DNA from: a virus
IMG/VR virus record: IMGVR_UViG_3300036822_000175
Coordinates: 1-40,768 of that record
Direction: 5' to 3' (one strand)
Length of the DNA: 40,768 bases
Shown here: piece by piece, positions 2,640-37,551 of the stretch
Numbering within the stretch: position 1 is the first letter of the stretch
How the letters are laid out: every line of letters begins with the position of its first letter
Notes under the pieces: generated by a model
Seen by the model: only the letters and a program-made list of their open reading frames with translations
The model's database searches: none
What the model was told of the DNA's origin: nothing
Made by a program: the position numbers and the translations under genes

Positions 2640-3631
2640 TCAGTCCTCCGCGAGACACGCGCGGATAAAGAGCGCGGCAGTTTGCGGAACGATTGCATTG
2701 CCGTAACCGCGCAGTCGCACCATTCTGGCGGGAACCCCATTAGCCAGCGGCTGAAGGCCGGGTTGAGTGAGCCGCGTTTTTCCGTCGGTGCAGGGGAGCC
2801 GGTCGAAATCGCTCCATGCACCTGTATACGCAGGTTCTTCGGATCTCTGGATTTCTCCGACTCCGAAATCCCGTAGTGTTGCGCGTCCTGGCACGTCGGC
2901 GTTCCCCACCCCGTTAGACTGACCTGCCTCCCCAGCAATCCATTGATTGGAGTATTGGTCAGGTCGGACGCTCCATCCTTGTGATCCCGAACAGTTGGTG
3001 TCGCCCAGCCCGCAAACTTCGCCGCATGCTCCAGTGACGCCGCATGCTTCCTGCCGTCCGCCGTGCGCCCCGTCGCATCCATCTTTTCCGGTGCCATTGA
3101 GCGGCCGCCGTTCGGCGTGCATGGACTCGGCCAGCCAACCAGGTGCGCCGCGCCCTCCAGATCCATTCCGCCCGTATGCGTCGGCGTACTGCGGGTATTC
3201 GGGCCTCCGCTGGGCGTGTTCGGCGTTGGCCACCCAGTACAGCCGCTGTCTGATGTGGGGCGCTCCCGCGCTGTGTGCTCCCAGAACCGCAATCCCGAGA
3301 GCGTACGCTTCCTTCTCCACGTCTGCGCGTACACGGTCGATCCAGCCGAATCCAACAGAGTTCGCAACCTGTTCCCCAAAGATTCGGTCAGGATGTCGCT
3401 CGGATGCGATGCGCCAAAACGCAGGCCAAAGGTCGCGGGTATCCGTGTGGCCTTCCTGTTTTCCGGCGACGCTGAACGGCTGGCACGGGCAGCTTGCGGT
3501 CCAGACGGCACGGTCATCCGGCCATCCGGCGAGGCGCAGGGCGTAAGACCATCCGCCGATCCCGGCGAAGAAATGGCACTGGGTGTATCCGGCGAGGTCG
3601 GCTGCTCGAACATCAATAATTGAACGCTCAT
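2636..3631 (-). CDS. Overlapping-frame ORF nested in the methyltransferase gene
   Basis: A 331-codon frame lies on the same strand as the methyltransferase, shifted by one base, from ATG 3631 (GGGGGA 5-6 nt upstream) to 2636. It encodes repeated GW(P/A/G)TP blocks and ends with LNPAFSRWLMGFPPEW. I recall this pattern from many phage hypothetical proteins. The blocks are a direct readout of conserved methyltransferase codons: GLGDTNCS and GWATPTV come from the same DNA. It may be a recurrent shadow frame kept open by GC-rich codon use, or a genuine overprinted gene. The shadow explanation is favoured by default. Confidence 0.3.
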   Translation of the reverse strand: MSVQLLMFEQPTSPDTPSAISSPGSADGLTPCASPDGRMTVPSGPQAARASRSASPENRKATRIPATFGLRFGASHPSDILTESLGNRLRTLLDSAGSTVYAQTWRRKRTLSGLRFWEHTARERPTSDSGCTGWPTPNTPSGGPNTRSTPTHTGGMDLEGAAHLVGWPSPCTPNGGRSMAPEKMDATGRTADGRKHAASLEHAAKFAGWATPTVRDHKDGASDLTNTPINGLLGRQVSLTGWGTPTCQDAQHYGISESEKSRDPKNLRIQVHGAISTGSPAPTEKRGSLNPAFSRWLMGFPPEWCDCAVTAMQSFRKLPRSLSARVSRRTE

Positions 3632-3725
3632 CGACATCCCCCGCCGGAATCAAGCCACCTTCCATCAGTTCGCGCAGCCATGCCGCCGCCTTTGGATCGA
3701 ATTCGTTGTAGTAAACACTTGGCAT
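2640..3725 (-). CDS. C5-cytosine DNA methyltransferase
   Basis: Transfers a methyl group from S-adenosylmethionine to cytosine C5, probably protecting phage DNA from host restriction. Motif I FAGIGG is at residues 53-58, the catalytic PCQ loop at 80-82 (nucleophile C81), the motif IV equivalent EQV at 118-120 and the motif VIII-like RQRLYW near 159-164. The C-terminal GLQPLANG...RGYGNAIVPQ block is typical of the family. ATG 3725 gives 361 residues; a GTG at 3740 is also in frame but lies in a palindrome. It is the first gene left of the integrase and divergent from it. Almost the whole gene is also open in a second frame (see next entry). Confidence 0.95.
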   Translation of the reverse strand: MPSVYYNEFDPKAAAWLRELMEGGLIPAGDVDERSIIDVRAADLAGYTQCHFFAGIGGWSYALRLAGWPDDRAVWTASCPCQPFSVAGKQEGHTDTRDLWPAFWRIASERHPDRIFGEQVANSVGFGWIDRVRADVEKEAYALGIAVLGAHSAGAPHIRQRLYWVANAEHAQRRPEYPQYADAYGRNGSGGRGAPGWLAESMHAERRPLNGTGKDGCDGAHGGRQEACGVTGACGEVCGLGDTNCSGSQGWSVRPDQYSNQWIAGEAGQSNGVGNADVPGRATLRDFGVGEIQRSEEPAYTGAWSDFDRLPCTDGKTRLTQPGLQPLANGVPARMVRLRGYGNAIVPQTAALFIRACLAED

Positions 3726-3734
3726 AAAACATTC

Positions 3735-3748
3735 GTACACGCGTGTAC
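3735..3748. promoter_or_regulatory. 14-bp perfect palindrome between methyltransferase and integrase
   Basis: GTACACGCGTGTAC is a perfect inverted repeat just upstream of the methyltransferase start, in the gap shared with the divergent integrase. Two further GTGTAC words lie at about 3889 and 3903, close to the integrase start. This is a plausible operator for coordinating the two divergent genes. No regulator is assigned. Confidence 0.5.
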
Positions 3749-25596: not shown

Positions 25597-27006
25597 ATGC
25601 CGCAGGAAAACCCCTTCGACCAGTTTCAGTTGCTTTACCGCACCGATCCGGTGCGCATGGTGCGGGAAGTCTGGGGCGCAGAACCCGATAAATGGCAGGA
25701 AGAATTTCTGAACGCGCTGGCGCGCGGCGAGCGCCGTATTTCCGTCCGGTCCGGCCACCGCGTCGGCAAGTCGACCGCCGCGTCGTGGGCTTCGATCTGG
25801 TTTTTGCTGTGCCGCTACCGCTGTAAAGTTGCGATCACTTCGCAGTCGGCCACCCAGTTGTTCGACGCGCTTTTCAGCGAGATCGTGCACTGGATTAACG
25901 AACTGCCGCCGCAACTGAAGGAATTGCTGAATATCAAATCCAGTTCCATTGAACTGGCGTCGGTGCCGCAGGACTGCTTTCTCACCGCCGGCACCTCGCG
26001 ACCCGAGGCGCCGGAGGCGCTGGCCGGCAAGCACTCCGACTTCGTCCTCTTAATCGCTGACGAGGCCTCCGGCATTCCCGAGCAGGTCTTCGAAGCCGCA
26101 TCCAGTTCCATGGCGGGACACAGCGCGCAGACGGTTTTGCTGGGCAATCCGGTTCGCACCTCCGGCTTCTTTTACGACACCCACCACAAGAACAAAGCCC
26201 GCTGGTACACGATGCACGTCTCGGGTGTCGATTCGCCGCGCGTGTCGCGCGACTATATTAAGGATGCGCTGGAGTCCTACGGCGAGGATTCCAATTACTT
26301 CCGGGTCCGCATTCTCGGGGAATTCCCCCGGGTGGACGAGGACACCGTTATACCGATTGAACTGGTGCAAACCGCCGTGTCGCGGGATGTGGCGCCTTCC
26401 CAGTTCGCGAGCATTGTATGGGGTCTCGACATCGCCCGCTTCGGCAGCGACTGTTCGGCATTATGCAAACGTAAGGGAAATTCGGTAACCGAACCAGTTC
26501 GCACCTGGCACGGCAAAGATCTGATGCAGACAGTGGGCCTCGTGATGGCGGAATGGGAAACCACGCCCAGCGAGCGGCGCCCCGTGGAAATCCTTGTGGA
26601 CTCAATTGGTCTCGGCGCCGGGGCCTGCGACCGGCTCGCGCAACTCGGCCTGCCGGCGCGCGGCATCAATGTCTCGGAATCTCCCGCAGTCGGGAATACC
26701 TTTATGAATCTGCGGGCGGAACTCTGGTTCAAAGCCAAGTCGTGGTTCGAAAAGCGGGACTGCCTGATTCCCTCGGACGACCGGTTGATCGGCGAGCTTA
26801 CGACGATCCGTTACGGGTTCCAGGAGAAAACCGGCAAACTGCGAATCGAATCCAAAGAGGACATGAAGAAACGGGGTTTGCGTTCCCCTGACGTGGGAGA
26901 CAGCTTTATTTTGACGCTGGCGTCCGACTCTTCGACGGCGCTTTACGGGACTGCCGCCGGGAATTCGTGGTCGCGGAAACTCGTCAGCCGGTTGCAGGTG
27001 GTTTAA
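25597..27006 (+). CDS. terL: Terminase large subunit
   Basis: ATPase/nuclease motor that packages DNA through the portal. 469 residues. Walker A SGHRVGKST at 52-60, Walker B LLIADE with D155-E156, and the coupling motif GNP at 183-185. The RNase H-like nuclease has D278 (GLDIARFGSD), D335 (VDSIGLG) and D432/D435 (SPDVGDSF). The only usable start is ATG 25597, because TAA at 25582-25584 is in frame, and no Shine-Dalgarno is present. It is unusual in being divergent from the portal and 6.5 kb from the small subunit. Confidence 0.95.
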   Translation: MPQENPFDQFQLLYRTDPVRMVREVWGAEPDKWQEEFLNALARGERRISVRSGHRVGKSTAASWASIWFLLCRYRCKVAITSQSATQLFDALFSEIVHWINELPPQLKELLNIKSSSIELASVPQDCFLTAGTSRPEAPEALAGKHSDFVLLIADEASGIPEQVFEAASSSMAGHSAQTVLLGNPVRTSGFFYDTHHKNKARWYTMHVSGVDSPRVSRDYIKDALESYGEDSNYFRVRILGEFPRVDEDTVIPIELVQTAVSRDVAPSQFASIVWGLDIARFGSDCSALCKRKGNSVTEPVRTWHGKDLMQTVGLVMAEWETTPSERRPVEILVDSIGLGAGACDRLAQLGLPARGINVSESPAVGNTFMNLRAELWFKAKSWFEKRDCLIPSDDRLIGELTTIRYGFQEKTGKLRIESKEDMKKRGLRSPDVGDSFILTLASDSSTALYGTAAGNSWSRKLVSRLQVV

Positions 27007-29568: not shown

Positions 29569-29835
29569 ATGAGCAGCGGATTTAAGGATATTTCAAAGCC
29601 GAAGACGCAACTGCGCATCGATGAAGTGTTCGTATTCATCGCGAAGGACGCGGACGGGGAGGGAGTGCCGGCTTTTACCCTGCCGGATGGGATGATGCTC
29701 CCTATGGTGTGCGCGGATAAAGAGAGGGTGGATTCGCTGCGTGCCATGGCACGGCGCATCGCGCGGGAAACCAAAAACAAAATCACCCTCTGCCGCTTCA
29801 GCGTGCGCGAAGAGATCGAAGTGATTGAACCATGA
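29569..29835 (+). CDS. Small conserved phage protein (88 aa)
   Basis: ATG 29569. Strand-rich: RIDEVFVFIAKDADGEGVPAFTLPDGMMLPMV, then a helix DKERVDSLRAMARRIARE and a strand KITLCRFSVREEIEVI. I recall similar small proteins in phages without known function. It ends in an ATGA overlap with the next gene. Confidence 0.75.
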   Translation: MSSGFKDISKPKTQLRIDEVFVFIAKDADGEGVPAFTLPDGMMLPMVCADKERVDSLRAMARRIARETKNKITLCRFSVREEIEVIEP

Positions 29836-30044
29836 GCGAGGAACTGTGCCGCTGCGGCCAGCCGCTGCACTACACTTCCCCGGAAATGAAGGCCCTCGTG
29901 GAGCGGCACATCCAGATGCTGGGTCCCGACACGAAAGTAACGGTGGGGGACCGGACGTGGAAAGTCCCGCGCCACTACATCGCTCTTCACGGTTTAAAAG
30001 CGGATGAGGTGGCCTCGCTTGGCTTTGAGGAAGCAACCGATTGA
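29832..30044 (+). CDS. Small zinc-like phage protein (70 aa)
   Basis: ATG 29832 overlaps the previous stop. CRCGQPLHYTSPEMKALVERHIQMLGP carries a Cys pair and a His. The rest (VTVGDRTWKVPRHYIALHGLKADEVASLGFE) looks like a compact alpha/beta domain. Unknown function. The following gene starts at TTG in a TTGA overlap. Confidence 0.75.
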   Translation: MSEELCRCGQPLHYTSPEMKALVERHIQMLGPDTKVTVGDRTWKVPRHYIALHGLKADEVASLGFEEATD

Positions 30045-30349
30045 AGAGCACGAATAATCCTGAGGCGGACGCGCGTTTCGGCGGCTTCGCGGTGGCGTAT
30101 GGCCTCACCGGAAACGGGCGCGAAGTTGTGGTGATGCGGCGCATGTTCAATACGCTTTTGACGATTGGACCGGTGGGCGCCGACTGGTACACGGACGGCT
30201 GGTGATTCGAGACGCCGGAACGCGCCGTGTGCGCGTTTAACGAATGGAATCCGGCTGAACAGAGTGAGCCGGAAGGCTGGTTCCGTCACGCCGCAACCGG
30301 TCGCCGGCGACCCGGTGGAGATCCGGCCAAAGAATACACAAACTGGTGA
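30041..30349 (+). CDS. Small phage protein interrupted by in-frame UGA
   Basis: TTG 30041 starts in a TTGA overlap. The frame runs 54 codons to a TGA at 30203-30205 and then continues 47 codons to TGA 30347-30349. The downstream half (FETPERAVCAFNEWNP, EPEGWFRHAATGRRRPGGDPAKEY) is clearly the continuation of the same family, in which I remember Cys at the interrupted position (DGWC-type). The interruption may be a nonsense mutation, a sequencing error, or a recoded UGA; a hairpin follows at SECIS-like distance. UGA ends many other genes here, so a whole-genome code change is excluded. Confidence 0.6.
30219..30237 (+). promoter_or_regulatory. Hairpin downstream of in-frame UGA (SECIS-like geometry)
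   Basis: AACGCGC and GCGCGTT form a perfect 7-bp stem around loop CGTGT. The loop starts 21 nt past the UGA and has G as its second base. As I know the bacterial SECIS consensus, the loop should lie about 16-37 nt from UGA with a G in its first two positions, so the geometry fits. Such hairpins are also common by chance in GC-rich DNA. Confidence 0.35.
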
Positions 30350-36520: not shown

Positions 36521-36826
36521 ATGGACAACGAAACAAAAGAGTATTTACGGGCAATGGAGGAACGGATTGCAGCGCTGATCGCAGGTGAGACCGCTACCAC
36601 TCACAGCGAACTGAAAGGAGTGGAGGAGCGGCTGACCTGGCGTATCGACGAAATAGACCGCCGCTTAAAGCGAGTGGACAGCAACACCAACACCACTATG
36701 GAATTGCTGGCGCGTCAATCACGCTGGCATGAGCAATCCGACAATTCTCTAAGCGGGCTCTCGACCGAAGTCAATAAATTACGGGAACGCATAGAAAAAC
36801 TGGAACGGGAGCGCCCCGCGCAATGA
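36521..36826 (+). CDS. Coiled-coil protein (101 aa)
   Basis: ATG 36521 with AAGGAAAAGGGAC leader. Long heptads (EERLTWRIDEIDRRLKRVDSN; LSTEVNKLRERIEKLERER). No membrane helix. Overlaps the serine recombinase start by 4 nt, so they are co-translated; it might assist it, though nothing in the sequence shows this. Confidence 0.75.
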   Translation: MDNETKEYLRAMEERIAALIAGETATTHSELKGVEERLTWRIDEIDRRLKRVDSNTNTTMELLARQSRWHEQSDNSLSGLSTEVNKLRERIEKLERERPAQ

Positions 36827-37551
36827 AAACCTTCGGCTACGCCCGCGTTTCGACCAACGAACAGGGCACGAACGGTGTATCGCTGGATGCGCAGGCCGTT
36901 AAGATCCGGCAGCAGGCCGGAGTGCTGGATTTGCCTGACGTGGAGGTGATATCCGAGGTGGGCTCTGGTTCCTGCATGGAACGGGACGGCCTGCAGCGCC
37001 TTGTAGGACTGATTGAAGCCCGCGAGGTGTCTATGGTCATCGTGGCTAAATTGGACCGTCTCACGCGCTCTGTACGCGATCTGTGGACGCTTCTCGACTT
37101 GTTTGACAAGCGCAAAGTGTCGCTGGTGTCGGTCGCGGACGCGCTCAACACTTCCACAGCCTCAGGCCGCATGGTGATCAGTATCATGATGACGGTTAGC
37201 CAGTGGGAACGGGAAGCAATCGGGGAGCGAACCCGGGACGCCCTGGGCCATATCAAGGAAAAGGGCTTTCGGGTTGGAACGGCCCTTTACGGCTACAAGG
37301 CGCCCAGGCGCACGGCAGAGGACCGAAAGCAGGGCGTCCGCCACCTGCTAACACCTGACCCGGCAGAGCAGGCATTGCTCAATCTGGCGAAGGCGTACCG
37401 CAAAGCGGGCGAGTCACTGCCTGCCATCGCGCGGTTACTGAACGAGGCAGGCCACAGGACGCGGCGCGGCGGCCTCTGGAGCCATCAGGGCGTGGCGAAT
37501 ATACTGGGCGCGCAGACAGAAGGCCTGAATGGCTCTGAGGGGCTACAGTGA
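36823..37551 (+). CDS. Serine recombinase (resolvase/invertase type, 242 aa)
   Basis: Catalytic Ser10 in FGYARVSTNEQ; VIVAKLDRLTRS and TASGRMVISIMMTVSQWEREAIGERTR are the conserved dimer and E-helix regions. A short DNA-binding end (GESLPAIARLLNEAGHRTRRGGLWSHQGVANIL) follows, so it is far shorter than large serine integrases. It may resolve genome dimers, invert a segment or serve a second integration route. The genome already has a tyrosine integrase, so a resolution role is attractive. Confidence 0.92.
   Translation: MKTFGYARVSTNEQGTNGVSLDAQAVKIRQQAGVLDLPDVEVISEVGSGSCMERDGLQRLVGLIEAREVSMVIVAKLDRLTRSVRDLWTLLDLFDKRKVSLVSVADALNTSTASGRMVISIMMTVSQWEREAIGERTRDALGHIKEKGFRVGTALYGYKAPRRTAEDRKQGVRHLLTPDPAEQALLNLAKAYRKAGESLPAIARLLNEAGHRTRRGGLWSHQGVANILGAQTEGLNGSEGLQ

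Follow-up and report, generated by a model that had tools for sequence, protein, structure and literature searches.

The limits published for the bacterial SECIS element (bSECIS) are an apical loop of 3-9 nt, a stem of 4-16 bp, a G in the first two loop positions, a spacing of 16-37 nt from the UGA and a minimum free energy of at most -7.5 kcal/mol (PMC13188914). The fdhF gene of Escherichia coli is the described case most similar to the phage gene family reported here, because both have an in-frame UGA at a Cys position, a hairpin downstream of it and an apical GGUC. The fdhF loop lies 18 nt after the UGA in the E. coli genome record, as compared to 20 nt in the phage family; furthermore, the phage protein is unrelated to that of fdhF, has about 100 residues, is borne by phages without SelB or tRNA-Sec, and lacks a CxxU-type redox motif. 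The catalogued prokaryotic selenoprotein families share the same decoding rules with the phage family, but none of 58 phage-family members matched a Pfam or NCBIfam model. Two reviews of prokaryotic selenoproteins, from 2022 and 2026, do not mention phages or viruses (PMC13188914, PMC9312934), and few or no viral sequences were present among the selenoprotein families examined in another study (PMC9402790). Our own search of an open-access library for selenoproteins and Sec decoding in phages or viruses found no phage selenoprotein family.

The gene described in this study is located in the virus record IMGVR_UViG_3300036822_000175 (40.8 kb), and the window refers to the whole stretch of DNA analysed, 40,768 nt in length. 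The window encodes a terminase large subunit and is therefore a fragment of a tailed phage; an SU10-type portal and a major head protein are also encoded (Table 1). The gene and the small ORF preceding it are part of a series of overlapping small ORFs on the + strand, and the most likely start codon is a TTG sharing bases with the stop of that small ORF (TTGA). From this TTG the frame reaches a UGA at codon 55 and then continues for 47 sense codons to a second UGA, and both the coordinates and the homologues agree with the earlier note that the frame goes on in the same protein family after the first UGA. We estimate a probability of about 93% that this gene belongs to a family of small phage-borne selenoproteins, in which the UGA is read as Sec by the machinery of the host. 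Support for the selenocysteine reading is strong at the level of the family and good for the window gene. The conserved UGA, the exchange of Cys and UGA, the covarying SECIS, the ordinary UGA stops and the single foldable domain were computed, and from there we infer the decoding itself, the competence of the host and what the selenol does. If the infected host can make Sec, its SelB carrying Sec-tRNA-Sec would recognise the hairpin starting 12 nt after the UGA and would direct Sec insertion at codon 55, which would yield a single-domain protein of full length with Sec at the end of a beta-strand. The virus would supply the gene and its SECIS, and SelB and tRNA-Sec would come from the host.

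Table 1. Coordinates of the features in the window (IMGVR_UViG_3300036822_000175)
Feature	Position	Strand	Remarks
DNA cytosine methylase	2640-3740		
Terminase large subunit	25597-27006	+	Upstream of the UGA gene
Small ORF	29832-30044	+	70 aa; upstream of the UGA gene, its stop overlapping the start of that gene
Putative phage selenoprotein gene	30041-30349	+	102 residues; proposed Sec at position 55
In-frame UGA, proposed Sec codon (codon 55)	30203-30205	+	Cys in Cys-type homologues
bSECIS-like hairpin	30218-30238	+	8-bp stem (30218-30225 with 30231-30238), 5-nt apical loop, spacing 20 nt, about -10.6 kcal/mol
Apical loop CGUGU	30226-30230	+	G second; G-U as far from the UGA as in the GGUC loops of relatives
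Terminal stop of the putative selenoprotein gene	30347-30349	+	Also UGA; without SECIS
Serine resolvase/recombinase	36823-37551		

The window gene is homologous to 122 other members, and the pattern and protein scans together yielded 123 distinct members, of which 61 have UGA and 62 have Cys at the same codon. A gene 55% identical to it, with UGA at the identical codon, was found on another contig in the first viral scan. The UGA members are highly diverged and nearly all of them are located on viral contigs; none was present in the phage and plasmid collections searched, and no further ones were found in 392 Planctomycetota, 369 Caballeronia-class and 385 Salipiger-class genomes. Homologues were detected by tblastn in 16 phage records, all with Cys among those read, and the phages of Caulobacter, Brevundimonas and Sinorhizobium carry W/Y-Cys-Y/F at the UGA column, so that Cys in relatives, as claimed in the earlier note, is borne out by the Cys members. 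The first UGA members were retrieved with a UGA pattern, which biases the raw UGA frequencies, and a fair tally comes from the loci of codon-blind scans, in which the column was TGC in 36, TGA in 27, TGT in 21, TAG in 1 and another codon in 7. At least one of these seven, namely the TGG in L310, results from a row out of register, because L310 was separately read as TGA. Unrelated residues at this column would have counted against the Sec reading according to the earlier note, but the true exceptions to Cys or UGA are a handful, i.e., Leu (L086/L300), Tyr (L152 and L217), Glu (L228), Asp (L255) and Asn (L278), and the Sec or Cys residue is thus not absolutely required. In a tree built with the key residue masked, which is poorly resolved, five changes between UGA and Cys were counted by parsimony and at least three were forced by well-supported branches. 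The clade of the window gene itself is mixed and includes L001, L070 and L139 with UGA as well as L071 and L261 with Cys. An unusual C-terminus (GRRVSRSPD...) was common to L138, a UGA member, and L107, a Cys member, which suggests recombination or a shared downstream segment.

The published bSECIS limits were met by 49 of the 61 UGA members, with a spacing of 20 nt in 46, as compared to 4 of the 62 Cys members. Most relatives with UGA thus retain the hairpin, the loss of which had been named earlier as evidence against the Sec reading, and L070, L139 and L138 keep the UGA without a convincing hairpin. In the commonest UGA type, which aligns without gaps, positions 15-22 (counted from the U of UGA) pair with 27-34, and the loop at 23-26 is GGUC, AGUU or AAUU. 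The five inner pairs were formed in all 32 gapless UGA members. The pair 20-29, which joins two third codon positions, occurred in these 32 members as six pair types (CG 10, GC 9, AU 5, UA 4, UG 3 and GU 1) with 19 double changes, and the covariation score was 0.545, while shuffled sequences gave 0.218 and slid controls did not exceed 0.15. Compared with synonymous recoding, stems exceeded the expected strength in UGA members, with a mean z of +1.30, but not in Cys members, with -0.15 (Mann-Whitney p 1.5e-9, the sequences being related to one another). A hairpin with a GU loop was present in 48 of 54 UGA members, where synonymous recoding would give 18.8 and none of 20,000 simulations reached as many, and in 3 of 58 Cys members. 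This hairpin was also kept in L081, L233, L265 and L269 despite different amino acids there. In the covariance folding of relatives, as proposed in the earlier note, a model built from 32 sequences recovered each of ten held-out members with a stop codon at exactly the expected place, and it had no match in ten Cys members.

The hairpin of the window was described earlier as a 7-bp stem with the loop CGTGT 21 nt from the UGA, with G second and within bacterial SECIS geometry. Indeed, the loop begins at the 21st nt after the UGA, the stem AACGCGC/GCGCGTT has 7 bp, or 8 bp with one outer G-U pair, and the hairpin lies within the limits of PMC13188914 in loop size, stem length, position of the G, spacing and free energy. 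Taken by itself, however, it is not significant, being mildly unusual against dinucleotide shuffles (z about -2) and giving under synonymous recoding p 0.07 for stem strength and 0.40 for the rate of GU-loop hairpins. The compensatory changes described above were scored in the 32 relatives of the tetraloop register, and the window belongs to the other, pentaloop register. The covariance model R1, which was built on relatives with the tetraloop, did not detect the window hairpin because the register differs by one nt. The pentaloop form CGUGY is shared with L001, L024, L047 and L113, and later also L222, with the G-U at equal distance. The nearest relatives of the window are mixed in this respect: L001 has the same geometry with a weak stem, and L070, L139 and L138, the UGA members mentioned above as lacking a convincing hairpin, are also among them.

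One member has UAG at the Sec codon. It was found at positions 3998-4000 of L290 (also L211 and L314) in the 63-kb record IMGVR_UViG_3300031939_000001, and the hairpin GGCCGC-GGUC-GUGGCC is intact after it. Since UGA to UAG takes two changes, a simple error is unlikely there. A pattern scan for UAA and UAG versions recovered this UAG member only, and its UAA matches were unrelated sequences. Geodermatophilaceae are very GC-rich, and the 8 kb of the L290 record that were read have a GC content of 73%. A passage of PMC5330540 citing Mukai et al. 2016 reports that tRNA-Sec has the anticodon CUA and that UAG occurs in selenoproteins in Geodermatophilaceae. Those cases are cellular genes, whereas L290 is viral and carries the same Sec codon together with the intact SECIS hairpin. 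It is possible that the L290 phage has a UAG-Sec host resembling Geodermatophilaceae, as its GC content and codon would indicate; two proteins of its contig, searched for host assignment, had no match in the phage collection.

As an alternative to selenocysteine, a near-cognate ordinary tRNA could read through the stop codon in a programmed manner, stimulated by the hairpin, so that products of 54 and 102 residues would be made without selenium. Readthrough signals also consist of a stop codon and a structured element, and the three UGA members lacking a good SECIS would fit such a mechanism. But in homologues the residue found instead is Cys, the usual partner of Sec, the apical loop obeys SelB-type rules, and the Cys homologues yield the full-length protein only. 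TAA never occurs at the site, and the lone TAG case retains a SelB-type loop. We therefore regard readthrough as improbable, although it is the best surviving of the alternatives to the Sec reading.

A nonsense mutation, a pseudogene or a sequencing error in the window was offered earlier as a simpler explanation, and a lone UGA in one metagenomic contig would indeed look alike. This explanation is contradicted by the 60 other members with UGA at the same codon, and the region after the UGA is under purifying selection, with pairwise differences of 170, 130 and 349 at the first, second and third codon positions; hence it is very unlikely. Translation as two separate proteins, the second starting from the GTG in the loop of the window hairpin (30227) or from another internal start, appears just as unlikely. 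Most UGA members have GTC there, which is no start codon, the Cys homologues are continuous, and AlphaFold2, for which 58 family members were used and UGA was translated as Cys, predicted one domain across the UGA with a pLDDT of 94.2 and a pTM of 0.86.

In this prediction residue 55 is located in the strand 52-56. PHROG 24748, a homologous family without annotated function or mention of UGA, matched 21 of the 58 members (best E 4e-13), and the E value of 0.0073 for the window protein is marginal. Among solved and predicted structures no match had an E value below 0.001, and weak ones, such as AcrF1, were not counted as evidence. Two positions near residue 55 differ between the types, both counts being uncorrected for descent: position -2 is Arg in 53 of 62 Cys members and Gly, Ala or Val in 47 of 61 UGA members, and the residue after the downstream Gly-Trp is His in 56 of 62 Cys members and Met, Ile or Phe in 52 of 61 UGA members. 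L256, which has Cys but is nested among UGA members, likewise carries His after Gly-Trp. We speculate that this pattern fits a thiol that needs help with ionisation and a selenol that ionises unaided. Given that nearly every member has Sec or Cys at the column, the most likely guess is that the selenol or thiol is the reactive nucleophile of the protein, a tentative guess to which we give somewhat less than even odds.

Alternative codes occur in some phages, and many tRNAs are present on some of the contigs studied here, but a reassigned code or a virus-borne suppressor tRNA decoding every UGA is the least credible explanation of all. Around the UGA members, 205 of 359 ORFs of at least 150 codons end in UGA, more than in either of the other stops, and so do 39 of the 61 UGA members themselves, which means no code change. 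The terminal UGA of the window gene, having no SECIS, is an ordinary stop, and the window has no tRNA gene. On the contig of the UGA member L142, ARAGORN found a tRNA that it labelled Pyl, the anticodon being CUA (L168:1497-1573), which is possibly an amber suppressor on a phage contig.

For the Sec reading, the decoding machinery would have to be found in the host. Neither SelB nor tRNA-Sec above the gathering score was found in the searched viral records with UGA members; the tRNA-Sec-like matches on viral contigs scored below it, and those checked by ARAGORN were Tyr, Leu, Arg, Ser, Cys and other tRNAs. The cellular assemblies with family members came from the protein scan, and the only one with a UGA member, the Planctomycetota MAG OFTM34 (L151), has SelA, SelB and tRNA-Sec(UCA). 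L151 sits among phage genes, so the link to this MAG as host rests on binning. SelA and SelB were missing in five assemblies with Cys members (Salipiger, Leifsonia, Gemmobacter, Agromyces and Saccharibacteria), and viruses of hosts without the Sec system would carry the same protein with Cys. SelA, SelB and tRNA-Sec were all present in Caballeronia pedi, which has Tyr at the column. The tRNA-Sec model RF01852 was not used alone, because two Cys genomes that lack SelA and SelB (G043 and G045) also score above its cut-off.

These genes are probably the first bacteriophage selenoprotein family, in which a SECIS and a Sec codon exploit the decoding of the host, Sec is replaced by Cys where hosts lack the machinery, and one lineage has turned to UAG to match the tRNA-Sec of its host. 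In that case gene callers split or truncate this conserved phage gene, and the tens of natural UGA/Cys pairs, together with the one UAG case, would bear on the question of what keeps Sec in a small protein. If the Sec reading is true, the family would serve as a marker for predicting phages of Sec-decoding hosts, and as a widespread viral family dependent on SelA, SelB and tRNA-Sec of the host it would make selenium status a part of phage host range.
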